A stretch of 64,000 nt of DNA from assembly GCA_028688905.1 (NCBI GenBank), contig JAQTXH010000003.1, positions 1 to 64,000 on the forward strand, read 5' to 3'. Positions 36,359 to 53,199 of the stretch are shown here, piece after piece (positions within the stretch are counted from its first letter, which is position 1; every line of letters starts with the position of its first letter). The translations under genes and the position numbers were made by a program. Under the pieces are notes generated by a model. The model saw nothing but the letters and a program-made list of their open reading frames with translations. It searched no databases and was not told the origin of the DNA. Source of the stretch: Acidiphilium sp. GTDB lineage: Bacteria; Pseudomonadota; Alphaproteobacteria; Acetobacterales; Acetobacteraceae.

Positions 36359-36439
36359 ACTCGCCGCGACCACGAGCTACCACGGCTTCAGACTCGCGGA
36401 ATTCAGCCAAAACCTTGACGGTGATTGCCTAACGATTTT

Positions 36440-36455
36440 TGGCACGCGACTTGCT
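36440..36455 (+). promoter_or_regulatory. Sigma-54 promoter of the alkane monooxygenase operon
   Basis: A perfect consensus TGGCAC-N5-TTGCT with GG (36441-36442) and GC (36453-36454) ten bases apart. The predicted start is near 36466, leaving a ~334-base leader before mmoX. mmoX and bmoX operons elsewhere are also sigma-54 dependent. The 586-bp gap before mmoX otherwise holds an AGGAGGAG without a usable start near 36497 and a short leader ORF. Confidence 0.82.
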
Positions 36456-36792: not shown

Positions 36793-36799
36793 AACTGAA

Positions 36800-38392
36800 A
36801 TGGCTAGTTCCAATTTAGCCGTCAAAGAAGCGCTCAAGGCAAATCCAGTGCCGAGTAGCGTTGATCCCCAGGAAGTCCATAAATGGCTGCAAGACTTCTC
36901 GTGGGACTTCAAGGCAAAGGGCGGAAAATATCCGACCAAGTACAATCTCGACGTGAATACGCGTGAGCAGTTCAAGCTGACTGCTAAAGAATACGCGCGT
37001 ATGGAATCCATCAAGGAAGAGCGCCAGTACGGTACCCTGCTCGATGGTCTCGATCGTCTTGATGCCGGCAACAAGGTTCATCCGAAATGGGGTGAAGCGA
37101 TGAAGGTTATTTCCAACTTCCTCGAAGTTGGTGAATATGCCGCCATCGCCGGGAGCGCCCTCCTGTGGGACGCCGCGCAGTCTCCGGAACAGAAAAACGG
37201 TTACCTCGCCCAAGTCATGGATGAAGTCCGGCATACCAACCAGACTGCGTACGTGAACTACTACTACGGCAAGCACTACTATGACCCGGCGGGCCACACC
37301 AATATGCGGCAGTTCCGCTCCGTCAACCCATTGTACCCTGGCGTCCGGCGGGCGTTCGGTGATGGCTTCCTCGCTGGCGATGCTGTTGAAAGCTCGATCA
37401 ACCTGCAAGTTGTGGCCGAGGCTTGCTTCACCAATCCGCTGATCGTTTCGTTGACCGAGTGGGCCGCCGCCAATGGCGACGAAATTACGCCGACGGTGTA
37501 TCTGTCGATCGAAACCGACGAACTGCGCCACATGGCGAACGGCTACCAGACACTCGTTTCGGTCATGACCGATCCAGAGTCGTTCAAGTACCTCCAAACC
37601 GATCTCGATAACGCCTTCTGGACGCAGCACAAGTACCTGACACCTTTCGTTGGTTTTGGGCTTGAGTACGGTTCCAAGTACAAGGTCGAGCCGTGGGTGA
37701 AGTCCTGGAACCGCTGGGTCTATGAGGACTGGGCCGGTATCTGGCTGGGCCGCCTTCAGAAATTCGGCATCAAGAGCCCGAAATGCTTGGCCGACGCCAA
37801 GAAAGACGCGATGTGGGCGCATCATGATCTCGCCTTGCTTGCGGCGGCACTGTGGCCGCTGACCGGTATCCGTATGGAACTGCCGGACGAAGAGGCGATG
37901 AATTGGTTCGAGGCCAACTACCCGGGCTGGTACGATCATTACGGCAAAATCTACAACGAGTGGAAGTCGCTTGGCTTTGAAGATCCGAAGGCCGGCTTCT
38001 GCCCGCTGGTTTGGATGATGCAGAACGGACACGGTATCTTTATCGACCATACGTCTACGCTGCCGTTCTGCCCGACGTTAAGTAAGTCTGCCAGCAACCC
38101 GAGCTTCCTGGAAATGAACGGCAAGCGATTTGCCTTCTCCGAAGGGCATGGTGAGCGTCAGTGGTTGCAAGAACCGGAGCGGTACGAATTCCAGAACTTC
38201 TTCGAGCAGTACGAAGGCTGGGAGTTGTCCGAACTGGTGAAGGCCGCCGGCGGCGTTCGGAGCGACGGTAAAACCCTGCTGTCGCAGCCGCATCTACGGA
38301 GCACCGATATGTGGACGCTGGAAGATCTGAAGCGTTTGAACATCGTTATTCCGGACCCGATGAAAATCATGAACTGGCAGCCGGTTCACTAG
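36800..38392 (+). CDS. mmoX: Soluble alkane monooxygenase hydroxylase alpha subunit (sMMO/BMO type)
   Basis: A 530-residue catalytic subunit, collinear with MmoX (about 527). The di-iron ligands are all present: Glu112, Glu142, His145, Glu207, Glu241 and His244 (NFLEVGEY, DEVRH, VVAEACF, SIETDELRH). At the position of the methanotroph active-site cysteine (Cys151) it has Thr149, as in butane monooxygenase. Leu280 and Phe322 are also butane-type, while Lys321 is methane-type and Ala114 matches neither. It hydroxylates short alkanes using O2 and reductant from MmoC. ATG 36800 follows GAGGAG. It heads the operon behind a sigma-54 promoter. Methane as main substrate is unlikely. Confidence 0.95.
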   Translation: MASSNLAVKEALKANPVPSSVDPQEVHKWLQDFSWDFKAKGGKYPTKYNLDVNTREQFKLTAKEYARMESIKEERQYGTLLDGLDRLDAGNKVHPKWGEAMKVISNFLEVGEYAAIAGSALLWDAAQSPEQKNGYLAQVMDEVRHTNQTAYVNYYYGKHYYDPAGHTNMRQFRSVNPLYPGVRRAFGDGFLAGDAVESSINLQVVAEACFTNPLIVSLTEWAAANGDEITPTVYLSIETDELRHMANGYQTLVSVMTDPESFKYLQTDLDNAFWTQHKYLTPFVGFGLEYGSKYKVEPWVKSWNRWVYEDWAGIWLGRLQKFGIKSPKCLADAKKDAMWAHHDLALLAAALWPLTGIRMELPDEEAMNWFEANYPGWYDHYGKIYNEWKSLGFEDPKAGFCPLVWMMQNGHGIFIDHTSTLPFCPTLSKSASNPSFLEMNGKRFAFSEGHGERQWLQEPERYEFQNFFEQYEGWELSELVKAAGGVRSDGKTLLSQPHLRSTDMWTLEDLKRLNIVIPDPMKIMNWQPVH

Positions 38393-38407
38393 ACTGAATC
38401 TGTCGAT

Positions 38408-38434
38408 CAGGTGCTCTTGCAAAAAGAGCACCTG
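38408..38434 (+). terminator. Hairpin between mmoX and mmoY
   Basis: A perfect 11-bp stem (CAGGTGCTCTT with AAGAGCACCTG) around a five-base loop, followed 16 bases later by seven T residues (38451-38457). It could terminate part of the transcripts or protect an mmoX-only mRNA, giving more alpha subunit message than downstream message. Confidence 0.65.
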
Positions 38435-38505
38435 ACGATTTTGAAAGCCGTTTTTTTGACTTAGATGCTGGCGCGTACCGCAAGCAAGTAAAGGTAGGAA
38501 ACAGA

Positions 38506-39681
38506 ATGAGTACAGGAAAATTTGTGCGCGGGATGATCGATCCCGAGCGAGCCGCGGAAATACGCGCCCTCGTACCGGAAAAACCGCTTGAAACAAAACG
38601 GGATCATATCCCCTTCGCTAAGCGTGGTTGGCGCCGTTTGACTGAGTACGAAGCGGTTATGCTGCATGCTCAGCCCACAACCGACGCGATTCCGGGGAGC
38701 ATGGATGTCGGGGAATCTGTGCAGAAATGGCCGGGTGGGCGTCCGCTCTTCGGTGTTGAATCGACGGCGCTGCTATCCAGCAATTGGTTCAATTTCCGTG
38801 ACCCGTCGAAGCGTTGGTATTATCCGTATATCAAAGGCAAATCCGAAGACGGTCAGACCACCGAGCGCGTGATGAAAAGCTGGGCCGACAGCGGCGACTA
38901 CGGCATGATGAACGACGCTTGGCGCAACCAGATTCTGGGGCCGGTATACGGCGCGTTCCTTTACGAGGAGTTTGGCCTGTTCAATGCGAACTCGTCCACG
39001 GTATACACCGCACTTTCAGATCTGCTGAGAATGTGGATTGCGGAATCCGGCTTCGATAAAGACGACGCGGCGCAAATGATCCAAACCCAACGCGTCCTGC
39101 TTGGTAAAATTTTCCCCGACTTCGATGAGAGCCTGGGCGATGCGAAAAAAAGCTGGACCGAGGCCGCGATGTGGAAGCCGGCGCGTGAATTCGTTGAGCA
39201 TATCTGGGGTGAGGTTTACGATTGGGGCGAGCAGCTTTGGGCGATCCATGGTGTTCATGACCATATTTTCGGCCAATTTGTCCGGCGCGAATTTTTCCAG
39301 CGTCTCGCAGGTATTCATGGCGATACACTGACGCCATTCATCCAGACCCAGGCCCTGACCTATCATCAGCAGGCAGCCGAGGGTGTGACGGCACTGTTCG
39401 GAAAAATGCTGATCAATGAGGAGCCGATCTATTCGACGCACAATCGGCGCTATCTGCGTGCCTGGACCAACCAATATTTGCCCCAGACCACGGCGGCGCT
39501 CAAGGCGTTCATCGGCGTGTACAAGGATCTGCCAGTCAAGGTCGATGGCATCACCTGCCGTGCCGGGGTGCAGGCTTCGGTGGAACGGGTGATCGACGAT
39601 TGGTCGCGCCGGTTTGCTGAACCGTTGGACCTGAAGTTTGATCGTAACGCCTTCGTCCGCGAAGTTATGAGCGGCTACTGA
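38506..39681 (+). CDS. mmoY: Alkane monooxygenase hydroxylase beta subunit
   Basis: A 391-residue subunit of the same length as methanotroph MmoY (about 389). The N-terminal RGMIDPERAAEIRALVPEKP arm, the GRPLFGVESTALLSSNWF region, FRDPSKRWYYPYIKG and TYHQQAAEGVTALFG match the ferritin-like beta chain, which lacks its own metal site and pairs with MmoX in the alpha2-beta2-gamma2 hydroxylase. It lies behind the intergenic hairpin and 15 bp before mmoB. Confidence 0.93.
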   Translation: MSTGKFVRGMIDPERAAEIRALVPEKPLETKRDHIPFAKRGWRRLTEYEAVMLHAQPTTDAIPGSMDVGESVQKWPGGRPLFGVESTALLSSNWFNFRDPSKRWYYPYIKGKSEDGQTTERVMKSWADSGDYGMMNDAWRNQILGPVYGAFLYEEFGLFNANSSTVYTALSDLLRMWIAESGFDKDDAAQMIQTQRVLLGKIFPDFDESLGDAKKSWTEAAMWKPAREFVEHIWGEVYDWGEQLWAIHGVHDHIFGQFVRREFFQRLAGIHGDTLTPFIQTQALTYHQQAAEGVTALFGKMLINEEPIYSTHNRRYLRAWTNQYLPQTTAALKAFIGVYKDLPVKVDGITCRAGVQASVERVIDDWSRRFAEPLDLKFDRNAFVREVMSGY

Positions 39682-39696
39682 GAAAGTTTAAATACG

Positions 39697-40113
39697 ATGA
39701 CCAAAAATACGAATGGTTATAACAGCGGTACCAATGCCAAATCGGGTCAGGCGTTTATGGATGAGTTCCTGGGCGATGCAACGAGCAAAATTCCCACCAG
39801 CGACGCCGTGGTTGTGGCGCTGATGAAGTCGGAAGAAATCGACGCGATCATCCAAGAGATAGTTATTCCGATGCGCGAAGAGAACCCCTCGATTGCGATC
39901 GAGGACCGCGGTGGTTATTATTGGATCAAAGCAACCGGCAAGCTGACGTTCGATTGCGATGAAGCGAGTGAAATGCTCGGCAAAAAATATACCGTCTATG
40001 ACCTTCTGGTGAATGTCAGCACGACGGTTGGCCGCGCCTTTACCTTGGGTAACAAGTTCATTGTGACGAATGAGCTGCTTGGGTTGGAATCAAAAGTAGA
40101 AAGCGTTTATTGA
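39697..40113 (+). CDS. mmoB: Alkane monooxygenase regulatory (coupling) protein B
   Basis: A 138-residue effector component. After a flexible Asn/Gly/Ser-rich N-terminal tail, the conserved core follows: SDAVVVALMKSEEIDAIIQE, EDRGGYYWIKATGKLTFDCD, then YDLLVNVSTTVGRAFTLGN. MmoB binds the hydroxylase near the active site and tunes substrate access and O2 activation. The gene order X-Y-B-Z is the standard one. Confidence 0.93.
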   Translation: MTKNTNGYNSGTNAKSGQAFMDEFLGDATSKIPTSDAVVVALMKSEEIDAIIQEIVIPMREENPSIAIEDRGGYYWIKATGKLTFDCDEASEMLGKKYTVYDLLVNVSTTVGRAFTLGNKFIVTNELLGLESKVESVY

Positions 40114-40125
40114 GGAGGCGTGAGG

Positions 40126-40626
40126 ATGGCAAATTGGTACAACACAGAAACCCGTGACGAGTGGCAAGACCAAATCAACTCGCTCAGGTCGGTTAGCGCA
40201 GGCGTCGAGTGTCTGCAATCGTTTCGCGCCGACCATACCGGGCCGGACCGTAAAACCTACGATCTGAAAAAAGAGGTGACCTGGATCGAATCCAGGATTG
40301 AAATGCGGCTTGGTCAACTTCATAGCGAAGAGTTGATCAGTGACGAAGATTTGCTTAGCAAGACCATTGATGGCAAGTGCGCCAAAGAGGTCGTGGGCGA
40401 ATGGGTCAAAAAGGCTGCCGATATCGATTGCAAAATCAAGATGGAGGGGCTTTGCATTGCCTATCGCAAGGCATGCAAACCACCGATGGTTCCCATCAAT
40501 TATTTTGCAGCCGGCGAAAAAATATTGATCTCCAAGCTGATGCGACTGCGGGCGATTGGAGCCTTGGATCAGACGGTCGAAGAATTGCGAGAGATGCGCG
40601 GCGTAACCCGGTTGAGCGTGCAGTAG
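40126..40626 (+). CDS. mmoZ: Alkane monooxygenase hydroxylase gamma subunit
   Basis: A 166-residue helical gamma chain of normal length (MmoZ about 170): NTETRDEWQDQINSLRSV at the N-terminus, LKKEVTWIESRIEMRLGQL in the middle, and PPMVPINYFAAGEKILISKL near the end. ATG 40126 follows GAGGAGGCGTGAGG; an in-frame GTG two codons earlier is less likely. It completes the hydroxylase. Confidence 0.92.
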   Translation: MANWYNTETRDEWQDQINSLRSVSAGVECLQSFRADHTGPDRKTYDLKKEVTWIESRIEMRLGQLHSEELISDEDLLSKTIDGKCAKEVVGEWVKKAADIDCKIKMEGLCIAYRKACKPPMVPINYFAAGEKILISKLMRLRAIGALDQTVEELREMRGVTRLSVQ

Positions 40627-40694
40627 AATATGAGCTGGCCAGACGACTAGCTTAGTTAAGGTCGACTTGTACCAGCTCAGACTAGGAATTTCCA

Positions 40695-40728
40695 CCAAGG
40701 GGTAGGCCAGACTGGTCTGCACCCTTGG
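40695..40728 (+). terminator. Hairpin between mmoZ and the zinc-ribbon gene
   Basis: CCAAGGGGT (40695-40703) pairs with ACCCTTGG (40721-40728) with one bulged G, and the loop contains the self-complementary CCAGACTGG. There is no T run, so an mRNA processing or stability element is as likely as a terminator. The gap between genes is 146 bp, the largest inside the hydroxylase part. Confidence 0.4.
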
Positions 40729-40772
40729 GGGGAGTTGTGGATGTTTTGAAATGATCGTTGGAGTTTCCCGTC

Positions 40773-41018
40773 GTGGCTCATGTTTTTGGCGATGGCTTGA
40801 ACGAAGTCGGGTTAGAGCATGGCTATAAATGTGGTGCGTGCGGCTACAAGTTTTTTGCCGGAATGACACTGGTCGTCAACGGCGCTAATTTTTGTCCGAG
40901 TTGTAAAGAGGAAATTCTCAAGTTTCCAACTTTGAACGACATCAAGCAGCACGACTATATTGCGCATACAGGGCGGGATCGATTTCATTCGATCGTGACT
41001 GTTGAGGGTGAGGAGTGA
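40773..41018 (+). CDS. Small zinc-ribbon protein within the monooxygenase operon
   Basis: An 81-residue protein with two CxxC pairs, Cys20/Cys23 (YKCGACGYKFF) and Cys41/Cys44 (NFCPSCKEE), separated by 17 residues, a zinc ribbon or rubredoxin-like knuckle. It lies between mmoZ and mmoD, where methane and butane monooxygenase operons have no extra gene as far as I recall. GTG 40773, nine bases after GGAG, is preferred; TTG 40758 is an alternative. Its stop is three bases before the mmoD ATG, so it is clearly in the operon. It may be an assembly or iron/redox helper; the function is unknown. Confidence 0.7.
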   Translation: MAHVFGDGLNEVGLEHGYKCGACGYKFFAGMTLVVNGANFCPSCKEEILKFPTLNDIKQHDYIAHTGRDRFHSIVTVEGEE

Positions 41019-41020
41019 CG

Positions 41021-41290
41021 ATGATTGCGAGTCTAGAAATCCCTGAAATTCCACATGTTGCGGGTCAACCCGCGATCATTGGCAAAACAACGCTTGCCTA
41101 CAGCGAGGGCGAGTTTCGTGTTTACACGACGGAGTTGGAAATTCTTTGGCGTTGGGATTTGTACAAGGGCGAGCGGCATCTGCATACAGGGTGTGCCCAT
41201 AGCCAGGAAGGTGGTGTTTTGCAGTCACAATCCAAAATCAGATTTTTCCTGCGGCCGAACATGGCGGCGCTGATTATGCCGGCTCAATAG
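41021..41290 (+). CDS. mmoD: MmoD-like monooxygenase assembly/regulatory protein
   Basis: An 89-residue protein aligning with MmoD (OrfY): YTTELEILWRWDLYKGER matches the MmoD YAKDLDFMWRW region, followed by the GC-containing HTGCAHSQEG segment and a final helix. MmoD is thought to help assemble the di-iron hydroxylase and, in methanotrophs, to affect the copper switch. ATG 41021 follows GAGGAG. Its place before mmoC is canonical. Confidence 0.8.
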   Translation: MIASLEIPEIPHVAGQPAIIGKTTLAYSEGEFRVYTTELEILWRWDLYKGERHLHTGCAHSQEGGVLQSQSKIRFFLRPNMAALIMPAQ

Positions 41291-41439
41291 CACATTGCCA
41301 GAGTGATTTGTGTGAGTAACGATGCCGCCACGTAAACGTTGGCGTGTAGAAGTTGCGTGAACAGATAACCGGGTGCCTACGGCGATTTACGGCGCTGCAG
41401 GTTGGATCTAAAATATCGATAGCCAGGACGAGGAAAAAA

Positions 41440-42519
41440 GTGAACTACGTCATTACCGCGCGATTCATGGATGATAAGACTATTGAGTTCGACTGCGCTG
41501 AAGACGAGAATATTCTCGCCGCGGCCCTGCGGCAGAACCTTCAGCTCATCTGCCAGTGCAAAAAAGCGTACTGTGGTAGCTGCAAAGCGCTTTGCTCGGA
41601 TGGGGATTATGAATTCGGCGAACGGATCAACATTCAGGTTCTGCCGTCGGACGAAGAAGAAAAAGGCATCGTGGTGACGTGCGACACGTTTCCGCGGAGC
41701 GACCTTGTTTTGGATTTCTCCTATACGAGCGACCGGCTGGGCGAAGCGACGGTGCCGGAAATTTCGGCCAAAGTGGTTGGTCTTGAGCGCTTGTCGGAGA
41801 CGGTTTTCAGGTTGGAATTGCAGGCGATCGACGCCGAGACATCAATACCGACGATGTTTGACTTCGTGCCAGGTCAATATGTTGAAATTGGGATTCCCGG
41901 CACCGATCAGGTTCGGGCGTTTTCGCTCGCGAACCTGCCGAACGAGCAGGGTTTGATGGAGTTTCTGATCCGTTTGGTTCCAGGCGGCAGCTTCTGTGGC
42001 TATCTCGAGCGCGAGGCGGCGGTAGGTCAGATCGCCAAGGTCCGGGGGCCTTTGGGTGAGTTCGTCTGTAAGGCGGGCTGCACCAAAATGGAAGAAGACT
42101 TCCGCCTGCACGAGACTGGCCGGGTGCAAGCTTTTGTCGGCGGCAGCACCGGGTTAGCGCCGCTTGTGTGTATGCTGCGTAATCTGGCGAGTCATGACTA
42201 CGCTGGGGAGTGCCATCTGTTTTTCGGCATGCAGAACCGCGCGACGATGTTTTACGAGAAGGAGTTGGCGGAACTTGCGGCCTCGATGCCCAATTTGACC
42301 CTGCACCTCGCGCTGATGGAAGGTTCTCCGGACTGGCAAGGTGCGATCGGTCACTCGGTCGGAGCCTTCGAGGCGCATTTCACGGGTGTTGAGGAACGTC
42401 CTGAGGTTTATCTGTGTGGGCCGCCCCCCATGGTTGCAGCAGCAGTGGCGAGTTGCGCCCGACTGGGGATTCCTTCGGATCAGGTCCACCAAGAAGAGTT
42501 TGTCGCCAGTGGCGGATGA
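41440..42519 (+). CDS. mmoC: Alkane monooxygenase NADH reductase component
   Basis: A 359-residue reductase. A plant-type [2Fe-2S] domain binds its cluster by Cys40, Cys45, Cys48 and Cys81 (CQCKKAYCGSC). The FAD domain shows RAFSLANLPNE, and the NADH domain shows GGSTGLAPLVCML and YLCGPPPMV. It passes electrons from NADH to the hydroxylase. GTG 41440 with GACGAGGA upstream gives the family start; an ORF extension to 41353 is not family-like. The 3' end overlaps the next small gene by 11 bp. Confidence 0.93.
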   Translation: MNYVITARFMDDKTIEFDCAEDENILAAALRQNLQLICQCKKAYCGSCKALCSDGDYEFGERINIQVLPSDEEEKGIVVTCDTFPRSDLVLDFSYTSDRLGEATVPEISAKVVGLERLSETVFRLELQAIDAETSIPTMFDFVPGQYVEIGIPGTDQVRAFSLANLPNEQGLMEFLIRLVPGGSFCGYLEREAAVGQIAKVRGPLGEFVCKAGCTKMEEDFRLHETGRVQAFVGGSTGLAPLVCMLRNLASHDYAGECHLFFGMQNRATMFYEKELAELAASMPNLTLHLALMEGSPDWQGAIGHSVGAFEAHFTGVEERPEVYLCGPPPMVAAAVASCARLGIPSDQVHQEEFVASGG

Positions 42520-42838
42520 CGATCCCATTGATCCAGTGGCTAGTGGCCTTAATGCGGAGGCCATCGAACTGCTGACTGACGCCGCAGCGGCATTGAACGA
42601 GGAGATCCAGAGGTTGGAGGCTCATCGTGACTATCTGGCTGCGAAAATGGGCGACGATCGGATCGAACTGTTGCAAAGCCTTTCTGATCAGCAGATGGAC
42701 CGTGAGGAAAGATTCGAAATTACCAGTTTCCTCTCCTATGGCGAGAGGAAACTGCTTTGGCTGTGGGCTAGGCTAACAAAAGTAAAAGAATTGCGGCGAG
42801 AAATCGCACATACCGTGATGAAAAACAATTTAGGGTAG
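42509..42838 (+). CDS. Small coiled-coil protein between mmoC and mmoG
   Basis: A 109-residue acidic, helical protein. A likely coiled coil spans roughly residues 15-55 (LLTDAAAALNEEIQRLEAHRD), followed by an ERFEITSFLSYGERKLLWLWARLTK segment and a basic end. There are no cysteines, signal peptide or membrane helix. GTG 42509 overlaps the mmoC stop, and mmoG starts four bases after its stop. No counterpart is known to me in mmo or bmo operons. It may be a partner of the MmoG chaperonin or an assembly factor, which is inference from position. Confidence 0.6.
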   Translation: MADDDPIDPVASGLNAEAIELLTDAAAALNEEIQRLEAHRDYLAAKMGDDRIELLQSLSDQQMDREERFEITSFLSYGERKLLWLWARLTKVKELRREIAHTVMKNNLG

Positions 42839-42842
42839 TGAA

Positions 42843-44534
42843 ATGAGTGCTAGTGAACGGGTCGTACCGCGTCTGGTGACGACAAACGCGCGCGCGCAGC
42901 GAAAGCTGGCTGCGGGCATGCGCGCACTCGCACGGGTTGTGGCGGTCACACTAGGGCCAAGCGGACGCTACGTTTTGTTGGAGCACCGCAGCCACCTGGC
43001 CCCGGTGTTCACCAAGGATGGCATTGAGGTCGCCCGTGCCATGGTGGTGGCCGACCGCGAAGAGGAAATGGGGCTGCGTCTACTCCGAAACGCGGCACTG
43101 GACGTTTCGGCCTCCGTCGGCGATGGCACGACGACCACGATCGTGATTACCGGTGCCTTGGCGCGGCGGTGCCTGACTTTTGCCTCGGTGCGGATCGACG
43201 CGTGTGCGGCACGAGCAGGGCTGGCGCAGGCTGGTGCCGCAGTGATGGCCGAACTGGCTGCGATGGCGAGGCCGGCGGGGTTGGAAGATCTGAAAGCGGT
43301 TGCGCGCACGGCGGCCAATGGTGATGCAAATTTGGCGGCTCTTCTTGCCGAAGCCTATGTTCATGTCGGGGCTGGTGGCACGATCGATATCGAAATGGGC
43401 AACACCGGCGAGGATGTCCTCGACCTAAAAACCGGCCATGAATTCGAATCGCAGACCCTCATGCGCGAATTACTGCCGCCGACCGGCGCGCGCCATTTGA
43501 AAAACCCACTCATCATGTTTCATGATGGCGAGTTGGAGCATTTCGAAAAAATGGTGCCGGCGCTTGAAATTGCCTGCCAGGAAAAGCGCCCGCTCCTCAT
43601 TCTTGCCGACGATGTCAGCGATGAGGTGCGGTTGGGTTTGTTGACGAACCAGCGCAACGGAACTGTGGATATCGTTGTCGCAAAACCGCCGATGTATGGC
43701 GACACGCGCGTGGAATGCCTTTCGGATTTGACGGTTCTTTGTGGTGGAACGGCGTTTGTGACCGGCAGTTTCACGGATCTGCGCGCGCTGGACCGGCGTG
43801 ATCTGGGCGGGTGCGACGAGGCCATCATCACCGCGGAGAAAATGACACTGCTCGGTGCGCAAGGCGACCCGGCGGCGTTGCGGGATCGCATGGCCCTGCT
43901 GCGAGCCGAACTTGAGCGCGGCGATAGCGGTACCTCGCCGAGCGGTCAGGCCGACTATAGCGACAAGCGCCAGGACCGTCTGAAAATATTGTCGAACTTC
44001 AGGGCGATCCTTCATGTCGGTGGTGCCAACGATAGCGTCATCAAATCCAGATTCCCTCTCGCGGAAAACGCCCGTAGAGCACTTTTTGCGGCGGCCGAAT
44101 CCGGCATACTGCCCGGTGGCGGCGTGGCGATGCTGCGCGCCGCACAGCGCGCCAGGGAAAAGCTGGTGATTGACGATGCCGACGGCCGCATTGGCTCCCA
44201 GGCGCTGTTTTCCGCCCTGGAGCAGCCGCTGCGGTGGATTGTCTGGAACGCAGGATTCCGCTCGGATGAGGTCATCGCCCGGGTGCTTATGGAAGACGAC
44301 GCGTTTTTCGGTCTCGATGTCGCCACACGCCAATATTGCGATCTTGGTGTCGCCGGCGTGGTCGATTCATTTCAGATGGTCCGCGCGATCATCGCGATTT
44401 CGGTCTCGATCGCGGGGTCGCTGCTGGCGACCAGCATTCTGATCAGCAAGGCAGAGGACCGGGTACAGCCCGAAAAGTTCCGCGGCACCGAGACGCTCTA
44501 TCAGGAATTGATGGCCGATGGCGCTTTCGACTAG
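42843..44534 (+). CDS. mmoG: GroEL-like monooxygenase chaperonin MmoG/BmoG
   Basis: A 563-residue divergent group I chaperonin. It has GroEL-like signatures VTLGPSGRYVLLEH, FTKDGIEVARAM, VGDGTTTTIVITGAL, SGILPGGGVAMLRAA and a final membrane-like IAISVSIAGSLLATS helix. It lacks the Gly-Gly-Met tail. MmoG and BmoG are dedicated chaperonins needed to fold or assemble the soluble di-iron monooxygenase. It is encoded directly behind the structural genes and four bases before prpE, so it links the monooxygenase and propionate genes in one transcript. Confidence 0.9.
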   Translation: MSASERVVPRLVTTNARAQRKLAAGMRALARVVAVTLGPSGRYVLLEHRSHLAPVFTKDGIEVARAMVVADREEEMGLRLLRNAALDVSASVGDGTTTTIVITGALARRCLTFASVRIDACAARAGLAQAGAAVMAELAAMARPAGLEDLKAVARTAANGDANLAALLAEAYVHVGAGGTIDIEMGNTGEDVLDLKTGHEFESQTLMRELLPPTGARHLKNPLIMFHDGELEHFEKMVPALEIACQEKRPLLILADDVSDEVRLGLLTNQRNGTVDIVVAKPPMYGDTRVECLSDLTVLCGGTAFVTGSFTDLRALDRRDLGGCDEAIITAEKMTLLGAQGDPAALRDRMALLRAELERGDSGTSPSGQADYSDKRQDRLKILSNFRAILHVGGANDSVIKSRFPLAENARRALFAAAESGILPGGGVAMLRAAQRAREKLVIDDADGRIGSQALFSALEQPLRWIVWNAGFRSDEVIARVLMEDDAFFGLDVATRQYCDLGVAGVVDSFQMVRAIIAISVSIAGSLLATSILISKAEDRVQPEKFRGTETLYQELMADGAFD

Positions 44535-44538
44535 TCAC

Positions 44539-46467
44539 ATGCCTGATGCTATTGCCAACGTGAGCAAATATCCAGACTATTACGCCGCTTGGCGGAGCGA
44601 TCCCGAAGCCTATTGGCGCAAGGCCGCCGAGACGATCGACTGGATCAAGCCGTTCGACCAGGTATTCGACCCGCAGATCGGCCCGTTCGGGGTTTGGTTT
44701 CCCGGCGGCGTGATGAACACCTCGGCTAATTGTCTAGACCGGCATGTCGACCATGGTGCCGGGGATCGCATCGCCATTATTTGGGATAGCGCGATGGAAG
44801 GGCGCATCGAGCGCTACACCTATCGTGCTCTGCGCGACAGAGTGGCGAAGGTGGCCGGTGCGCTGGCCGCTCGTGGCATCGCCAAGGGCGATCGCGTGGT
44901 CATTTATATGCCGATGGTTCCGGAAGCGGCGATCGCCATGCTCGCCTGCGCCCGGCTTGGGGCGATCCATTCGGTGGTGTTCGGCGGCTTTGCCGCGCCG
45001 GAACTTGCGGCACGGATCGACGCCGCTCGGCCAAAGCTCATCATCGCGGCGTCCTGCGGGCTCGAACCCGGCCGGATCGTGGCCTACAAACCCATCCTGG
45101 ATGACGCGATCGCCCGTGCGACCCATAAGCCGGCGCGTTGCCTGATCTTCCAGCGCACCGCCGCACCGGCAACCATGATCGCCGGTCGTGACGAAGGCTA
45201 TCTCGAAGCCGAAGCCGCCGCCACACCGCACGACCCGGTCCCGGTCGCTGCGACCGATCCGCTCTATGTGCTCTACACGTCCGGTACCACCGGCAAACCC
45301 AAGGGCATCGTCCGCGACAATGGTGGTCACGCCGTGGCACTCGCGGCGTCGATCCCGCTGATTTTCGATGTGCATTCGGGCCAGGGTGCCGCGAGCGAGG
45401 TGATGTGGACGGCGTCGGACGTCGGCTGGGTCGTTGGACATAGCTATATCGTCTATGGGCCGCTGCTGGCCGGGGTGACCACGCTCATGTACGAAGGCAA
45501 ACCGGTCGGTACGCCCGACGCGGGGGCATTTTGGCGGGTTTGTGCCGAGCATCACGTCAAGACCCTGTTCACCGCGCCGACGGCGCTGCGGGCGATCAAG
45601 CAGCAGGATTCCGAAGGCAAGCTGCTGGCCCCCTACAATCTTTCGAAGCTCGAAGCCTTGTTCCTGGCCGGCGAACGTTGCGACCCGCCGACCGCCAAAT
45701 GGATCGCGGCCCTCCTTGAAAAGCCGGTGATCGATAATTGGTGGCAGACCGAAACCGGCTGGCCGATCAGCGCGCGGTTTCGCGGCCTTGGACTTACGGT
45801 CTTCAAGCCCGGCTCCGGGGGCCGGCCGTGTCCTGGATATGATGTGCAGGTACTCGATGAATCTGGGCAGCCGAACCCGCCCGGCGAGGTTGGTGCCCTG
45901 GTCATACGCCTGCCGTTACCACCCGGCTGCGCGCCGACGCTCTGGCAGGATGATGCCGGCTATCGCCGTGCCTATCTGGAAGCCTATCCCGGCTGGTATT
46001 GCACGGGCGACGCCGGCATGGTCGATGCGGACGGCGATGTCTGGGTCATGGGGCGCACCGACGACATCATCAACGTCGCTGGTCATCGCCTGTCGACCGG
46101 TGCGATGGAGGAGGTGCTGGCATCGCACCCTGATGTCGCGGAATGCGCGGTGATCGGCAAGCCGGACGCGATCAAGGGCGAGGTGCCGCTCGGCCTCGTG
46201 GTGCTGAAGTCGGGGGTGAACCGCGATCATGCGACAATCCAGAAGGAGTTGGTCAAGCTGGTGCGCGAGTGCATCGGCCCGGTCGCCGCCTTCAAGGACG
46301 CGTTGGTCGTGCCGCGGTTGCCGAAAACCCGCTCCGGCAAAATTCTGCGCGCGACGATGCGGCAGATGGCGGGCGGCGCGAACCCGGTGGTGCCCCCCAC
46401 CATTGAGGATGCGGCGGTGCTCGATCAGATCGCAGCGCTCCTTAAGGTCACGAGCCATATTGCTTGA
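44539..46467 (+). CDS. prpE: Propionyl-CoA synthetase PrpE
   Basis: A 642-residue acyl-CoA synthetase with the ACS N-terminal segment, the P-loop LYTSGTTGKPKGIVRD, the propionate-type substrate region (ASDVGWVVGHSYIVYGPL), a WWQTETGWPI motif, and the C-terminal catalytic lysine in KTRSGKILRATMRQ. It activates propionate with ATP and CoA. It starts four bases after mmoG (or at ATG 44518, overlapping it), so it is almost certainly co-transcribed with the alkane monooxygenase. The last codons and stop lie in a repeated ~105-bp element. Confidence 0.9.
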   Translation: MPDAIANVSKYPDYYAAWRSDPEAYWRKAAETIDWIKPFDQVFDPQIGPFGVWFPGGVMNTSANCLDRHVDHGAGDRIAIIWDSAMEGRIERYTYRALRDRVAKVAGALAARGIAKGDRVVIYMPMVPEAAIAMLACARLGAIHSVVFGGFAAPELAARIDAARPKLIIAASCGLEPGRIVAYKPILDDAIARATHKPARCLIFQRTAAPATMIAGRDEGYLEAEAAATPHDPVPVAATDPLYVLYTSGTTGKPKGIVRDNGGHAVALAASIPLIFDVHSGQGAASEVMWTASDVGWVVGHSYIVYGPLLAGVTTLMYEGKPVGTPDAGAFWRVCAEHHVKTLFTAPTALRAIKQQDSEGKLLAPYNLSKLEALFLAGERCDPPTAKWIAALLEKPVIDNWWQTETGWPISARFRGLGLTVFKPGSGGRPCPGYDVQVLDESGQPNPPGEVGALVIRLPLPPGCAPTLWQDDAGYRRAYLEAYPGWYCTGDAGMVDADGDVWVMGRTDDIINVAGHRLSTGAMEEVLASHPDVAECAVIGKPDAIKGEVPLGLVVLKSGVNRDHATIQKELVKLVRECIGPVAAFKDALVVPRLPKTRSGKILRATMRQMAGGANPVVPPTIEDAAVLDQIAALLKVTSHIA

Positions 46468-46555
46468 GGTTGACGCACCTGCGGCAATCGAATGCGATGA
46501 AATTTCTTGCAAAAATAGGGATAGAGCCTGTTCGTCCCTGAAACGATCAGGCTCT
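46452..46555 (-). repeat. 105-bp repeat, copy 1 (minus orientation), with terminator-like hairpin
   Basis: Read on the minus strand this matches 53356-53460 at roughly 85 percent by eye. It contains the hairpin AGAGCCTG...CAGGCTCT (46523-46530 and 46548-46555), which lies between the convergent prpE and regulator genes and may end both transcripts. It overlaps the last codons of prpE. It looks like a small mobile repeat or the end of an insertion sequence. Confidence 0.7.
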
Positions 46556-46570
46556 GATCCGTCGGGGGCC

Positions 46571-48001
46571 TCACCCTTCCAGAATGCGATAGGGTACGAC
46601 ACCGCGCTCGACCGATCCGACGTCGAGCGCCCGCCCCACCGGCGGTAGCGCACGGTGCCGGCAGGTGGTGCGCGCGCAGATGCGGCACCCTGGCCCGATC
46701 AGATCGACCGTCTCGGAGGCGTGCAGATCGAGTCCGGCGGCATAGACGGTCCGGGCAGCGAATTCGATCTCGCAGCCGAGGCCGACTGCCACCACGCGGG
46801 GCCGGCTCAAATACGATCCGCCCGCGTGGCCAACCGTGCGGGCAACGCTGAGATAGGTGACATCGTCCGGCGTGCGGGCGAGTTGCACCAGGATGCGCCC
46901 CGGCTGGGCAAACGCCTGGTACACATTCCACAGCGGGCAGGGGCCGCCGAAGCGGTCGAATTGAAATCGCGTCGCGCTCGAACGCTTGAGCACATTGCCG
47001 GAAGCGTCGGTCTTGAGAAAAAAGAACGGAATTCCCTCGAACCCAGGCCGCTGCAACGTACTCAACCGATGGCAGACCTGCTCGAAGCTGGTGCGAAATG
47101 TCGTTTGCAGGCGCTGAATATCGTAGCGCATCGCTTCGGCCTGTTGCAGAAAGCGGCGATATGGCATGATCAGGGCACCGGCGAAATAATTCGCGAGCGC
47201 CACCCTGGCGAGGGCGCGCGCCGTATCCGACGAGAGATTGGCGCGGCGAACGATCCGGCCGATCAGCCGCCCGTGCTGCAATAACCCGATCACGTGCGCG
47301 ATGCAGAACGCCCGGGTCTCGGGCGTCATTTCCTCGGCCATGTGCAGCACCAGGCCGCGCCGGTCGAGTTGCCAGAGTGTACCCTTGTGCAGAAAGCCGG
47401 GTGCATTGCGCAGCCGGACCCGATGCTCGCGCAGCAGCAGCGCTTCCAGATCGGTCTGGCGGGCCGCCGGCGCGAGGTCGCCTTGCTCGGTCATCGCTTC
47501 AGCGACCCGGTCGAGGTCATGGACATAGTTGCGCTGCGATTGCACCCAGTCGCGCACTTCATCGTAAGGCGGCCGGGGCGTGTTCTCGGATTGGTCGGCA
47601 AACGCCGCCTTGGTTTGCAGCATCGCCTGGCGGTCGGCGAGGGTGCGGTAGGCACCGTAGAGGGCGAGGAACCGCTCGGTCAGATCCGGTGCGTCGCGCA
47701 CCGCCGCCCGCGCGACCGCCAAACTCAGGGTCGCGTGACCGAAAATCGGATCGGCGCTCACCGTGCAGAGGTCTGCGGCCTGGCGCAGATTGTCCGGGCT
47801 GCCGAAGTAGGTTGGTGCGACGCCGAACAGGGCGGCAATCGCCGGCAGTGACCGCGCCGGGATCGGCCGCCGATCGCTCTCGATCTGATTGAGGTAGCTT
47901 GGCGATAGGCCGAGCTTCACCGCGAGATGCGCCTGCCGCATCACGGCGTCTTCGCGCAGCTTCCGGAGCCGCGCTCCCGCATAGAGTTTCTGATCCCGCA
48001 T
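46571..48001 (-). CDS. Short-chain fatty acid responsive XRE regulator (ScfR/RamB/PrpR family)
   Basis: A 476-residue regulator: an N-terminal HTH (LRKLREDAVMRQAHLAVKLG, then LSPSYLNQIESDRR), a central IrrE-like region, and a C-terminal DUF2083 domain ending in GCRICARTTCRHRA, where the clustered cysteines resemble the iron-sulfur site of mycobacterial PrpR. Family members bind acyl-CoA and control glyoxylate or methylcitrate genes. It is divergent from prpD, and a TTTGCAAA operator sits just upstream of its own start. It most likely controls prpDCB. Confidence 0.85.
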   Translation of the reverse strand: MRDQKLYAGARLRKLREDAVMRQAHLAVKLGLSPSYLNQIESDRRPIPARSLPAIAALFGVAPTYFGSPDNLRQAADLCTVSADPIFGHATLSLAVARAAVRDAPDLTERFLALYGAYRTLADRQAMLQTKAAFADQSENTPRPPYDEVRDWVQSQRNYVHDLDRVAEAMTEQGDLAPAARQTDLEALLLREHRVRLRNAPGFLHKGTLWQLDRRGLVLHMAEEMTPETRAFCIAHVIGLLQHGRLIGRIVRRANLSSDTARALARVALANYFAGALIMPYRRFLQQAEAMRYDIQRLQTTFRTSFEQVCHRLSTLQRPGFEGIPFFFLKTDASGNVLKRSSATRFQFDRFGGPCPLWNVYQAFAQPGRILVQLARTPDDVTYLSVARTVGHAGGSYLSRPRVVAVGLGCEIEFAARTVYAAGLDLHASETVDLIGPGCRICARTTCRHRALPPVGRALDVGSVERGVVPYRILEG

Positions 48002-48006
48002 GACCT

Positions 48007-48022
48007 TGGCAAAGTTTGCAAA
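48007..48022. promoter_or_regulatory. TTTGCAAA operator between the regulator and prpD
   Basis: TTGGCAAAGTTTGCAAA includes the palindrome TTTGCAAA (48015-48022), the core recognised by RamB/PrpR-type regulators (remembered RamB motif AAACTTTGCAAA). A weaker TTTGGAAACAAA lies at 48035-48046. Position next to the start of the divergent regulator gene suggests autoregulation plus prpD control. Confidence 0.6.
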
Positions 48023-48120
48023 TGGGCCGATAAATTTGGAAACAAATTACAAGTTTTCGCTGTCCATGTCACATAACATCAGCGAAAATCATAGCCATCG
48101 AACCAACCGCTTGCCAACAT

Positions 48121-49632
48121 ATGGAAACGCAAATGAAATTGCACGACGTCAGGGTCCACCCTTCGAAGTCTTTGCTCAAACGCGAGGATCAACTGGCCTG
48201 GAAACTCGCCGGCGTCGCGGCTGACAAGGTTGCGGTCGAGACGGACGTGACCGCGATGATCATCAACCGGATCATCGACAACGCGTCGGTAGCGATCGCG
48301 TCGATCAATCGCGCGCCGATTGTCGCGGCACGGGGAGCGGCGCTGGGGCACAGCAAACACGGCGGTGCGATGCTGTTCGGCCTGCCGGCAAGCAAAACGG
48401 TCAGCCCCGAGTGGGCGGCCTGGGCGAACGGTACGGCGGTGCGCGAGCTTGACTATCATGACACGTTCCTTGCCGCCGATTACTCGCATCCGGGCGATAA
48501 CATTCCGCCGATTTTAGCGGTGGCGCAGAGCATGCAATGCAATGGGCGCGATCTGATCCGGGGCATCGCCACCGGGTATGAAATCCAGATCGATCTGGTA
48601 CGCGCCATTTGTCTGCACGAGTGGAAGAAGGACCATATCGCGCATCTCGCCCCCGCGCAGGCCGCCGGGGTCGGCACTCTGCTCGGCCTCAAACAGGAGG
48701 TGATTTACCAAGCCGTGCAGCAGGCGGTGCATGTCAGCTTCACGACGCGCCAATCGCGCAAGGGCGAGATCAGTTCGTGGAAGGCGTTCGCCCCCGCGCA
48801 CGCCGGTAAACTCGCGATCGAGGCGGTGGATCGCGCCATGCGTGGCGAGGGGGCACCCAGCCCGATTTATGAAGGCGAGGACAGCGTGATCGCCTGGATG
48901 CTCGGGGGCAAGGACGCGGTGTATCAGGTGCCGCTGCCCGACGAAGGCGAGGCCAAGCGCGCGATCATGGACAGCTATACCAAGGAGCACTCGGCGGAGT
49001 ATCAGAGCCAGGCGCTGATCGATCTCGCGTTCCGCATGCGCGAAAAGATCGAGAATTTCGGGGCAATCACGAAAATCACCATCCACACCTCGCATCACAC
49101 CCACTACGTGATCGGCACCGGAGCCAACGACCCGCAAAAGATGGACCCGACGGCCTCGCGCGAAACGCTCGATCATTCGATCATGTATATTTTCGCGGTC
49201 GCCCTGCAGGATGGGCGCTGGCACCACGTGGACAGTTACGCGCCCGAGCGCGCGCAACGCGCCGATACGGTTGCTTTGTGGCACAAGATCGAAACCTGCG
49301 AAGACCTTGAATGGACGAGACGTTATCACGCGATCGATCCGAATGAAAAAGCCTTCGGGGGCCGGGTAGAAATTCACTTCAAGGACGGTTCGACCCTGAC
49401 CGATGAAATGGCCGTCGCGAATGCCCATTCGCTGGGTGCGAAACCGTTCGCGCGCGAGGACTATATCCGCAAGTTCGAGACGCTGACCGGCGGCATCATT
49501 TCGGCGCGGGAATCGGCACGGTTCCTGGAGGCGGTTCAGGAGTTGCCGAAGCTGCCAGCCGGCGCGCTTGACCGGTTGAACGTGGCGCTGCCGGCGGACG
49601 CGCTGACGGAGAGCGTGGCGGGAATTTTTTGA
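48121..49632 (+). CDS. prpD: 2-Methylcitrate dehydratase PrpD
   Basis: A 503-residue MmgE/PrpD-family protein of the length of true PrpD (about 480-500). Visible motifs are [52 protein letters not shown] and [16 protein letters not shown]. It dehydrates 2-methylcitrate to 2-methylaconitate, later hydrated by an aconitase not encoded here. ATG 48121 has a poor ribosome-binding site; ATG 48133 is possible. It begins the prpDCB operon. Confidence 0.9.
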
Positions 49633-49658
49633 GCGGGATGGGGAAAGGGAATAGTGCG

Positions 49659-50807
49659 ATGAATGAAAACACGGCACCGAAACCGAAAAAATCGGTGGCA
49701 CTCTCGGGTGTTGTCGCCGGAAACACCGCGCTTTGCAGCGTCGGACTCACCGGCAACGATCTGCATTATCGCGGTTATGACATCCTCGATATCGCCGAGA
49801 GTTGCCGTTTCGAGGAGATCGCGCATTTGCTGGTGCATGGCACGCTGCCCAACCAGGCCGAACTCGATGCGTATCAGGAAAAGCTGCGCGGTTTGCGAGG
49901 AATTCCGGCATCGGTGAAGCGGGTGTTGGAGGCGATTCCGGCGGCTGCGCATCCGATGGACGTGATGCGCAGTGCAGTCTCTACCCTGGGCTGCATTCTG
50001 CCAGAGGCGCATGATCACAATGCCGCCGGCGCGCGCGATATCGCGGACCGCCTGATGGCGTCACTGGGTTCGATGCTGCTATATTGGTATCACTATTCGA
50101 CCAACGGCAAACGGATCGACGTCGAGACCGCCGATACCACAATTGGCGGGCATTTCCTGCATCTTTTGCACGGGCGCATCCCGGATGAGGATTGGGTACG
50201 GGCGATGCATATCTCGCTCATTCTCTATGCCGAGCACGAGTTCAACGCCTCGACGTTTGCCGCCCGCGTCGTCGCCGGCACCGGATCGGATATGTATTCC
50301 GCGATCACCGCCGGCATCGGCGCGTTACGTGGCCCGAAGCACGGCGGGGCCAACGAAGCGGCGTTCGAGGTGCAGAAGCGCTACGCGACGCCGGACGAGG
50401 CGGAGGCCGATATTCGCCGCCGGATCGAGGCGCGCGAGGTAATCATCGGCTTCGGCCATCCGGTCTATACCATCGCTGATCCCCGCAATGTGGTGATCAA
50501 GCGGGTGGCGCGCAGCTTGTCGGAAAAATCCGGCTCGCTCAAAATGGTTTCGATCGCCGAGCGGATCGAAACCGTCATGCAGCAGACCAAGAAGATGTTT
50601 CCCAATCTCGATTGGTTCAGTGCGGTGTCCTATCACATGATGGGGGTACCCACCGCGATGTTCACACCGCTTTTTGTGATCGCCCGGACCTCGGGGTGGA
50701 GCGCGCATGTGATCGAACAGCGGATCGACAACAAGATCATCCGCCCGTCCGCGAATTATGTCGGCCCGGACGACTTGCCGTTTGCCCCGATCGAGCAGCG
50801 CGGATGA
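49659..50807 (+). CDS. prpC: 2-Methylcitrate synthase PrpC
   Basis: A 382-residue citrate synthase-fold protein with the short PrpC form: [19 protein letters not shown] near the start, active-site regions [27 protein letters not shown] and IGFGHPVY, and the conserved C-terminal arginine region. It condenses propionyl-CoA with oxaloacetate. ATG 49659 follows GAAAGGGA. It is 26 bp after prpD and 10 bp before prpB. Confidence 0.9.
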
Positions 50808-50817
50808 GGAGAGCATC

Positions 50818-51738
50818 ATGACGTATTTAAGCGCGCACGATCTGCCGGCCAGCCCGGCGGGCCTGCGGTTTCGAAATCTGATGGATCGGCAAGGGATCTT
50901 GCAAATCCCCGGTGCCCATAACGGCCTCGCGGCGCAACAAGCCAAGCAGGCCGGATTCGAGGCGTGCTACCTGTCGGGTGCCGCGATGACCGCCTCGATG
51001 GGGTTGCCCGATCTCGGTATCATCACGATCGACGAGGTGTGCTTTTTCATCCGCCAGGTGGCGCGGGCGTCCGGCCTGCCGGTGCTGGTGGATGGCGATA
51101 CCGGCTATGGTGAGGCGTTGAACGTGATGCACATGGTCCGCAGCTTTGAGGACGCGGGTGCCGGTGCGGTTCACATCGAAGATCAATTGCTCCCGAAAAA
51201 ATGCGGTCATCTCAACGACAAAAAGCTGGCCACTCCGCATGACATGGCCACGAAGGTCGCGGCGGCGGCGCAGGCACGGCGACATCTGGTCATTATCGCG
51301 CGCACCGATGCGGCGGCGAGCGAAGGGATCGACGGCGCGGTGGCGCGCGCGAAGCTTTATGTCGAGGCTGGGGCGGATGCGATCTTTCCTGAAGCCCTGT
51401 ATGATGCCGAGATGTTTGCTGAATTCGCGCGGCGCATGCAAGGCGTGAAACTGCTCGCCAACATGACCGAATTCGGTCGCACCCCATTTTTCACCGCGAG
51501 CGAATTCGAGTCTATGGGCTACGAAATGGTGATGTGGCCGGTCACGTCGCTGCGGGTGGCGGCGAGGGCGGTTGGCAATTTATACGCCGCGATCAAGCGC
51601 GACGGCGGCGCACAGAATTGCGTCGGTGCGATGCAGACGCGGACGGAACTTTATGAAACCATCGACTACGCGGGGTTCGAGGCGCTTGATGCGACGATCG
51701 TAAAGACCGTCGTGCCGAAGGGCATGCCACAGCATTAG
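50818..51738 (+). CDS. prpB: 2-Methylisocitrate lyase PrpB
   Basis: A 306-residue member of the isocitrate lyase/PEP mutase superfamily: SGAAMTASMGLPDLGI, VLVDGDTGYGEALNV (metal-binding Asp), HIEDQLLPKKCGHL with the catalytic cysteine of the KKCGH loop, and ANMTEFGRTPFF. It splits 2-methylisocitrate into pyruvate and succinate, closing the methylcitrate cycle. ATG 50818 follows GAGGAGAG. Confidence 0.93.
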   Translation: MTYLSAHDLPASPAGLRFRNLMDRQGILQIPGAHNGLAAQQAKQAGFEACYLSGAAMTASMGLPDLGIITIDEVCFFIRQVARASGLPVLVDGDTGYGEALNVMHMVRSFEDAGAGAVHIEDQLLPKKCGHLNDKKLATPHDMATKVAAAAQARRHLVIIARTDAAASEGIDGAVARAKLYVEAGADAIFPEALYDAEMFAEFARRMQGVKLLANMTEFGRTPFFTASEFESMGYEMVMWPVTSLRVAARAVGNLYAAIKRDGGAQNCVGAMQTRTELYETIDYAGFEALDATIVKTVVPKGMPQH

Positions 51739-51805
51739 GGCGGCTGCATGTTCAATGAACCGGCTCGACTCTTTCTTTTATGAGCAATTTCAGACAGGGG
51801 TGTCC

Positions 51806-52852: not shown

Positions 52853-52875
52853 CAAAAGACAAGGATGAGGCAAGA

Positions 52876-52911
52876 ATGGCACGGATCGGATTTATCGGCT
52901 TGGGCAACATG
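52876..52911 (+). pseudogene. mmsB: 3-Hydroxyisobutyrate dehydrogenase, N-terminal fragment
   Basis: Twelve codons (MARIGFIGLGNM) match the NAD-binding start of MmsB, with a GGATGAGGC ribosome-binding region upstream. The sequence then switches abruptly into the reverse strand of a DUF4236 gene. A deletion or recombination removed the rest. In the intact pathway MmsB follows the HIBCH hydrolase, so the gene order supports the identification. Confidence 0.7.
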
Positions 52912-53065
52912 TGCAGCCCGATCGTCACGCGCTTGCCCCGGCCGAGATTGAGCGTCGCTCCCGGCACCCCCACCGAAACGCTCGCCCCGCGCCGCGAAAC
53001 GTTCAACCGCAATCCCGGCGCAATCCCGGCGCAATTTTCAACCGGCGGCGAAATCGTAATCCCAT
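52912..53065 (-). pseudogene. DUF4236 protein, frameshifted and truncated
   Basis: On the minus strand from ATG 53065 the frame reads MGLRFRRRLKIAPGLR, then is thrown out of frame by an 11-bp tandem duplication (CAATCCCGGCG at 53010-53020 and 53021-53031). The other frame continues with LNVSRRGASVSVGVPGATLN, completing the DUF4236 pattern, before being cut at the junction with the mmsB fragment. Both convergent genes thus lost their 3' ends at one breakpoint near 52911. Confidence 0.65.
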
Positions 53066-53199
53066 CGTCCAGTCCCCTGTCTAGAACGTGTCACGAACAA
53101 ACTGCACGGATCACGGCACATTTTCGCGGAGTGTTCCGTACCATGGCGGATCGTGCTCTTGCATCGAATCAGGCTAAAGGCTAGGGAAACCCGATCAGT

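Follow-up and report, generated by a model that had tools for sequence, protein, structure and literature searches.

Why should the operon of an alkane monooxygenase run directly into genes for the use of propionate? This question is raised by a 64,000-nucleotide stretch of an Acidiphilium sp. genome (the window, meaning the whole stretch analysed), in which the genes of a soluble di-iron monooxygenase are followed by prpE, encoding propionate-CoA ligase, and then by prpDCB, encoding enzymes of the methylcitrate cycle. We consider it probable that the locus serves the terminal oxidation of propane to propionate, which PrpE would pass to the methylcitrate cycle, and that it was assembled from a foreign butane monooxygenase (BMO) operon and a relocated prpE beside native prpDCB. 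An apparently foreign operon joined to native propionate genes is more likely to have been selected than to be accidental. Open frames, gene order and homologues were checked over positions 36800-51738 and the flanks. All genes named in a preliminary description of this DNA are present with open frames, and in the order it gave. On the plus strand this order is bmoX, bmoY, bmoB, bmoZ, a zinc-ribbon gene, bmoD, bmoC, a small open reading frame (ORF), bmoG and prpE; a minus-strand gene for an ScfR-type regulator and plus-strand prpD, prpC and prpB follow, ending at 51738. The full XYBZ-D-C-G set claimed there thus exists, although the two small genes, between Z and D and between C and G, had been missed.

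The oxygenase is read here as a butane monooxygenase and not a methane monooxygenase. Hydroxylase homologues were sought in 84,980 species genomes, and 88 relatives were obtained. Among the best 80 of these 88, the product of bmoX (hydroxylase alpha; 36800..38392, plus strand, starting at ATG 36800 in a frame that opens with GTG 36782) is about 80-84% identical to five BMO-type homologues (L003-L007) and 52-70% identical to those of all other loci. The five belong to Solimonas aquatica (L003), a betaproteobacterial metagenome-assembled genome (MAG), Thauera butanivorans, whose BmoX shares 83-84% identity, and two Rhodospirillales MAGs. In a tree of 81 sequences, with the short sequence L071 left out, the window hydroxylase joins them in a six-member BMO clade (support 100/97) and stands outside the clade of soluble methane monooxygenase (sMMO); its six di-iron ligands (E112, E142, H145, E207, E241 and H244) are all kept. 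The remaining plus-strand subunit genes agree: bmoY (hydroxylase beta; 38506..39681) encodes a protein 71% identical to that of Thauera and 40-46% identical to those of pseudomonadotal sMMO loci, and the corresponding values against BMO loci are 67-73% for bmoB (coupling protein; 39697..40113), 57-65% for bmoZ (hydroxylase gamma; 40120..40626), 49-51% for bmoD (41015..41290) and 55-62% for bmoC (reductase; 41353..42519, true start probably about 41440). The GroEL-like chaperonin encoded by bmoG (42843..44534, plus strand) matches GroEL families and is 48-56% identical to the G proteins of L003-L005 and L007, and the order XYBZDC followed by G is the BMO arrangement.

Given that subunits and gene order are alike in sMMO, and that the genome also encodes XoxF, Gfa, FrmA and RuBisCO, the enzyme might be taken for an sMMO serving methanotrophy. 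However, its hydroxylase lies in the BMO and not the sMMO clade, and the Y, B, Z and C proteins all fall below the NCBIfam cut-offs for MmoY (NF045802, 434.6 of 700), MmoB (NF045804, 165.5 of 245), MmoZ (NF045805, 140 of 230) and MmoC (NF045803, 351.7 of 500), whereas Y and B of a second operon in the same genome pass theirs; X of the window has no NCBIfam match. We rejected a methane monooxygenase identity on the clade and the missed cut-offs, and regard it as very improbable. The preliminary description was right to expect an alkane rather than a methane enzyme, as the BMO clade indicates, but its mmo gene names are misleading.

Two residues bear on where such an enzyme attacks its substrate. 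Where sMMO has Phe282, Leu is found in every one of the six BMO-clade members and Phe in 71 of the 74 other sequences; at the site matching sMMO Asn116, the window enzyme has Ala, the other five clade members Gly and 69 of the 74 others Asn (the numbering may be off by one or two, and the second copy of the host, with Phe and Asn, is outside the 74). In the Thauera enzyme, we take the Leu and Gly to be residues 279 and 113, which Halsey et al. reportedly found in 2006 to control terminal versus subterminal attack; among the literature matches listed, there is no mention of G113N. According to the accessible part of one source, primary alcohols make up more than 80% of the products that the purified Thauera enzyme forms with propane and butane (PMC10560718). 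This supports the terminal oxidation proposed in the preliminary description, and because of it 1-propanol would be the main product expected from propane. The hydroxylase of Solimonas aquatica, a member of the Nevskiaceae, is likewise BMO-type. Nevskiaceae are counted as putative methanotrophs from mmoX/pmoA genes in the portion of PMC10654671 consulted, and some of these mmoX calls could be BMO.

How closely prpE (44518..46467, plus strand) follows bmoG depends on its start. With ATG 44539 it begins four bases past the bmoG stop at 44534, which is the gap first reported; the alternative ATG 44518 would give an overlap of 17 bases, and GTG 44560, suggested by the N-termini of two relatives, a gap of 25 bases. 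The two best models for its product are the NCBIfam PrpE models (710.3 of 955 and 680.1 of 827.4), the nearest PDB chain is 5gxd (798 bits), which we take to be a PrpE, against 456 bits at best for acetyl-CoA synthetases, and Ala stands at the position, by our own count, of Val386 in wild-type Acs. The ligase might still act mainly on acetate or butyrate, in which case the coupling would be real but made for ethane or butane, and the methylcitrate genes would bring a side benefit. BMO does accept ethane, propane and butane, as stated in the part of PMC10560718 consulted, and the ligase, under both PrpE cut-offs, reaches 629.6 of the 657 required by the acetate-CoA ligase model. Its closeness to the PrpE models and 5gxd, the Ala residue and the methylcitrate genes nearby argue for propionate instead, and make a ligase for acetate or butyrate quite unlikely.

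The ligase gene itself has changed place. Orthologues 79-82% identical to prpE occur in 7 of 12 other genomes of the genus, and wherever flanks are available (6/6) they stand alone, with no prpD, prpC or prpB nearby and, at five of these six loci, with a gene read as valS in the vicinity. No second prpE was found in the host genome at E 1e-150. Since the orthologues stand alone elsewhere and the host holds no other copy, prpE is a native gene that was relocated and now has the bmo operon directly ahead of it.

The methylcitrate genes are, from the same comparisons, native to the genus: prpD (2-methylcitrate dehydratase; 48121..49632), prpC (methylcitrate synthase; 49629..50807, true start probably 49659) and prpB (methylisocitrate lyase; 50758..51738, start probably about 50818), all on the plus strand, are 78-88% identical to the genes of genus relatives (prpD 84-88% to eight of them, prpC 81-88% and prpB 78-84%). 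Ten of the 13 genus genomes, host included, have a prpD orthologue, that of the window falls inside the genus clade with support 100/100, and the host has no second prpD at E 1e-60. PrpC (NF009006, 695.6 of 550) and PrpB (TIGR02317, 415.3 of 354.4) score above their cut-offs; PrpD (NF042438, 836.8 of 950) scores below, yet is orthologous within the genus. Acquisition of the prp genes together with the operon was also considered and ruled out by the placement of prpD and by the genus orthologues of prpE at other sites.

Comparison with the genus further shows what has been lost. All eight relatives compared have the order short-chain dehydrogenase, acyl-CoA ligase, prpD, prpC, prpB, acyl-CoA dehydrogenase and 3-hydroxyisobutyryl-CoA hydrolase, with an mmsB match next in the five whose compared stretch gave one. 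In the prp region of the window, the short-chain dehydrogenase and the ligase have no counterpart other than a 25% match to prpE itself, and the acyl-CoA dehydrogenase is gone; the relatives' ligase is 30-34% identical to window PrpE over the C-terminal third only. The hydrolase remains (51755..52852, plus strand; NF004127 above cut-off, 52-67% to genus relatives), followed by an apparent 5' remnant of mmsB (52876..53184, plus strand), the first 12 residues of which agree by eye with mmsB of loci L108 and L109, while tblastn at 1e-3 gave no match. As a separate observation, these native valine-type genes beside prpB (51755-53274) seem to be decaying, with the dehydrogenase lost and mmsB a stub, and they end at a tRNA-Val gene.

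A region so rearranged, in which the ligase, short-chain dehydrogenase and acyl-CoA dehydrogenase found in 8/8 relatives each are gone and prpDCB lie behind a minus-strand regulator, is also what might be seen if a foreign BMO operon had landed near prp genes by chance, without any coupling. Chance would, however, have to account for two independent coincidences, as prpE and prpDCB are separate in the relatives and both are here, and for a prpE no more than 25 bases from bmoG; we regard it as unlikely, although it deserves some weight. Far more improbable is an assembly artefact that fused the DNA of two organisms between bmoG and prpE. The genome is a draft of 26 contigs with 1.89% contamination, and composition shifts near the junction, but the contig is 318 kb long, the joint runs gene to gene, and there is no other prpE or prpD in the host, so that these prp genes belong to the host contig.

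Is the operon foreign? We consider that it was probably acquired by horizontal transfer, and the patchy distribution of the hydroxylase gives stronger support for this than composition does. Among 299 genomes drawn from the family, a close hydroxylase occurs in the host only (six others reach 33-34% identity), and among 395 drawn from the order, a match at E 1e-150 occurs in two, the host and G438 (66%). The bmo genes have a GC content of 0.49-0.61, against 0.60-0.645 for the prp genes, and host-codon scores of 0.04-0.15 against 0.22-0.26, using a codon table built from twelve other host genes that themselves score -0.02 to 0.39 (median 0.31). No plasmid source was found for the operon; all 17 plasmid records that match the hydroxylase do so at less than 60% identity. 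Noted in passing, a Tn3-family transposase and resolvase lie at 4494-7834 of the window, about 29 kb upstream of the operon.

To judge how unusual the join is, we compared 83 oxygenase loci (80 from the homologue scan, one from the order draw and two on plasmids). A recognisable G gene is present in 69, and in 46 of them (45 from the scan and one on a plasmid) it follows X and has 2 kb or more of sequence after it; of these 46, three belong to the BMO type, and one comes from a Rhodococcus plasmid. None of the 46 has a join of bmoG or mmoG to prpE, or propionate genes after G, which agrees with the statement in the preliminary description that such genes do not follow methanotroph operons. Likewise, none of the 83 has a match to prpD, prpC, prpB or the regulator. 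The sole strong prpE match (59%) is on a plasmid of Mycolicibacterium chubuense NBB4, about 30 kb from the oxygenase; L011 and L018 have ligase matches of 26-27% far from G. Given that only three of the five BMO-clade loci (L003-L005) are usable beyond G, uniqueness rests on few close relatives.

The closest known system is the BMO of Thauera butanivorans (bmoXYBZDC, bmoG and bmoR), which shares the subunits and their order, the chaperonin gene after C, the clade and the Leu at the Phe282 position. It differs in lacking prp genes, both over the 3.7 kb past bmoG and elsewhere in 21.6 kb, in an upstream ORF of BmoR length that has no equivalent in the window, and in the Gly near the iron site where the window enzyme has Ala. 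Rhodoblastus isolates PC2 and PC3 carry bmoXYBZDCG, and the main text of that report does not mention prpE, propionate or methylcitrate (PMC9213486). The nearest case in print that we found, and a partial precedent, is the isoprene degrader Variovorax sp. WS11, in which propionyl-CoA arises from a soluble di-iron monooxygenase pathway and a megaplasmid methylcitrate cluster is co-induced; in contrast to the locus studied here, the substrate is isoprene and not an alkane, the cluster belongs to the prpC-acnD-prpF type, a methylmalonyl-CoA mutase is present as well, and the sections consulted describe no single operon (PMC9804861). The alkane island on plasmid pMYCCH.01 of M. chubuense NBB4 unites an sMMO-like operon and the 59% propionyl-CoA synthetase on one replicon, but it is plasmid-borne, many genes lie in the intervening 30 kb or so, and the 48 kb compared hold no prpD, prpC or prpB match. 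In another report alkane genes are described and methylcitrate is absent from the main text (PMC8262859). The parts are all known, and it is their combination and mode of origin that appear new within the sequences and literature searched, with subscription papers mostly outside.

Upstream of bmoX, positions 36440..36455 (plus strand) carry a sigma-54 promoter match, TGGCACGCGACTTGCT, which fits TGGCACGNNNNTTGCW exactly and is the only such match in the window; 0.01 would be expected, and one of 100 shuffles contained one, while looser patterns match at six other sites of the window. The genes from bmoX to prpE are likely a single transcript; prpDCB with the regulator form a separate unit, given that the minus-strand regulator gene intervenes. 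We queried the host genome with the upstream Thauera ORF, which we read as BmoR in view of where it lies, its length and the activators it retrieved. Of the 12 matches, the strongest (42%) lies at C26:260520, and the second (39%), at C18:193571, adjoins a xoxF operon on the same contig as the window. In Thauera, BMO is under a sigma-54 BmoR system, as summarized in the part of a review consulted (PMC5116465).

The regulator (46571..48001, minus strand) has ScfRs (PF09856, 203.1 bits), HTH (39.2 bits) and M78 (66.1 bits) domains, all above the gathering score, and reaches 436.3 of the 700 set for the RamB equivalog. The ScfR family includes PrpR and PccR alongside RamB. As first described, prpDCB and their regulator follow prpE, all with open frames, and the oxygenase genes are physically joined to a complete route; they do not form one operon with it, because the 1.43-kb regulator gene on the minus strand separates prpE from prpD. 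The pairing of regulator and prpD is ordinary for the family: in 8 of 12 family loci a close homologue and prpD are divergently oriented, and of the other four, one is a short contig with a prpC fragment adjoining and three have no prpDCB match. Beyond the regulator, the eight divergent loci have no prpE or oxygenase match; two have a 35-36% ligase after prpB. Arrival of the regulator with the operon is not supported by these loci, though the gene is absent from the prp stretches of all eight genus relatives, and of six genus relatives among the 299 family genomes, G232 alone has a close homologue, 60% identical and away from prp.

How might the assembled locus work? A BmoR-like activator encoded elsewhere, sensing alcohol or aldehyde, would turn on the sigma-54 promoter and so drive bmoX to prpE. 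BMO would hydroxylate mainly the terminal carbon of propane and of other alkanes that are short or odd-chain; alcohol dehydrogenases dependent on pyrroloquinoline quinone or zinc, together with an aldehyde dehydrogenase, would yield propionate, and PrpE would convert it to propionyl-CoA. The latter would signal through the ScfR-type regulator to prpDCB and be burned in the methylcitrate cycle, so that the layout would permit growth on propane. A search of the host genome for MM_CoA_mutase found no methylmalonyl-CoA mutase, so that the methylcitrate cycle, the route assigned to propionate in the preliminary description, is the only classical propionyl-CoA outlet found. In Thauera, propionate represses BMO expression and inhibits the enzyme (reviewed in PMC5116465, citing Doughty 2006 and 2007, in the part consulted). 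A PrpE made together with the oxygenase would serve carbon assimilation and, by removing propionate, also relieve inhibition. Transfer, transcription, substrate, regulation and relief of inhibition are the parts of this explanation that we infer. Repression and inhibition by propionate are a recognised weak point of butane monooxygenase, to which the joined bmo-prpE unit would be a direct answer, of use in studies of propane sinks and in alkane biocatalysis. Comparison within the genus shows how native genes and a foreign oxygenase can be combined into a catabolic pathway.

Several observations weigh against this explanation. The Ala at the position taken to be Gly113 of the Thauera enzyme means that regioselectivity may differ, and the ligase is under both PrpE cut-offs. 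Composition lends transfer weak support, since the flagellin (0.11) and ompW (-0.01) genes of the window have codon scores as low as those of bmo. With the regulator gene between prpE and prpD, coupling to prpDCB is indirect, and the BmoR search of the host genome placed no such gene beside the operon. A ribosome site is not obvious 5' of prpE, no aldehyde dehydrogenase was identified in the cluster, and six plus-strand terminator-like sites fall inside bmo-prpE and none in 45360-50146. These last belong to a scan of 35600-53400 that gave 9 sigma-70 promoter sites and 21 terminator sites, where shuffled sequence gave 7.3 and 18.0; with no more sites than chance would give, the scan is uninformative.

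The preliminary description had noted the absence of methanol dehydrogenase and C1 genes, which holds for the window but not for the genome. A second, sMMO-type operon lies at C10:1018441-1026056, with an X 64% identical to that of the window and without NCBIfam match, Y and B above the sMMO cut-offs (705.8 of 700 and 249.7 of 245), a G 32% identical to bmoG, a sigma-54-like site upstream and an adjoining ORF read as gyrA; its hydroxylase groups in the sMMO clade with Methyloceanibacter and Methylocella sequences (97/90). At C18:193571-201300, the BmoR-like activator is found beside a xoxF-moxJ-cytochrome-gfa-frmA operon (genes at 195.8-201.3 kb), in which the methanol dehydrogenase is XoxF-type (best PDB match XoxF 6oc5, 721 bits), the cytochrome was identified by reading, and a MoxJ-like protein, Gfa and FrmA are encoded as well. 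The XoxF also carries a WDYDG motif. A RuBisCO operon with genes read as phosphoribulokinase, CbbS and CbbX is located at C11:342000-348900; fae was not found in the host genome. Methane genes have been seen before in this part of the tree: mmoX-bearing Acetobacteraceae MAGs (PMC10654671) and, for Acidiphilium, the genes mmo, mdh, gfa, frm and rbc (PMC7677001) are reported in the parts of these sources consulted. Tentatively, the host could be a two-oxygenase gas eater. Methane would be handled by the sMMO-type enzyme, XoxF, a glutathione-linked oxidation of formaldehyde and the Calvin cycle, and propane by BMO with a captured prpE as a valve against propionate, wired to the native, propionyl-CoA-sensing methylcitrate cluster. 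We would sooner doubt this than assume it; if true, selection would have been caught in the act of bringing native genes together downstream of a foreign oxygenase.

Of the two small genes within the operon, the ORF of about 95 amino acids between bmoC and bmoG (42551..42838, plus strand) has homologues in 53 of 115 sequences compared, three of them the host's own, and no Pfam family above cut-off. Members near mmoC or mmoG (18 aligned) share invariant G, L, W and R residues, and the gene is a conserved yet unnamed component of such oxygenase operons. The zinc-ribbon protein with its CxxC...CxxC pattern, encoded between bmoZ and bmoD (40755..41018 from stop to stop, plus strand), is 59-60% identical to counterparts in L003 and L007, occurs nowhere else among the 115 sequences and matches Pfam Zn_ribbon_8 below cut-off. 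Upstream of the operon, a zinc alcohol dehydrogenase gene (34634..35671, minus strand; PF08240/PF00107, nearest PDB chain 5yln) is possibly associated with it, in a role that we assign by inference only. The EthD-like ORF at 35809-36213 has a weak Pfam match under cut-off and no counterpart in the other loci compared. An OmpW-family outer membrane protein (33607-34512), kin to AlkL, and an efflux set (27658-33184; an OEP outer-membrane protein, with a membrane-fusion protein and an RND pump read from their N-termini) could each take part in alkane or solvent handling. At the far end of the window, 57909-63564 encodes members of two Pfam families, SrfB (929 bits) and Virul_Fac (736 bits), forming a srf-type cluster.

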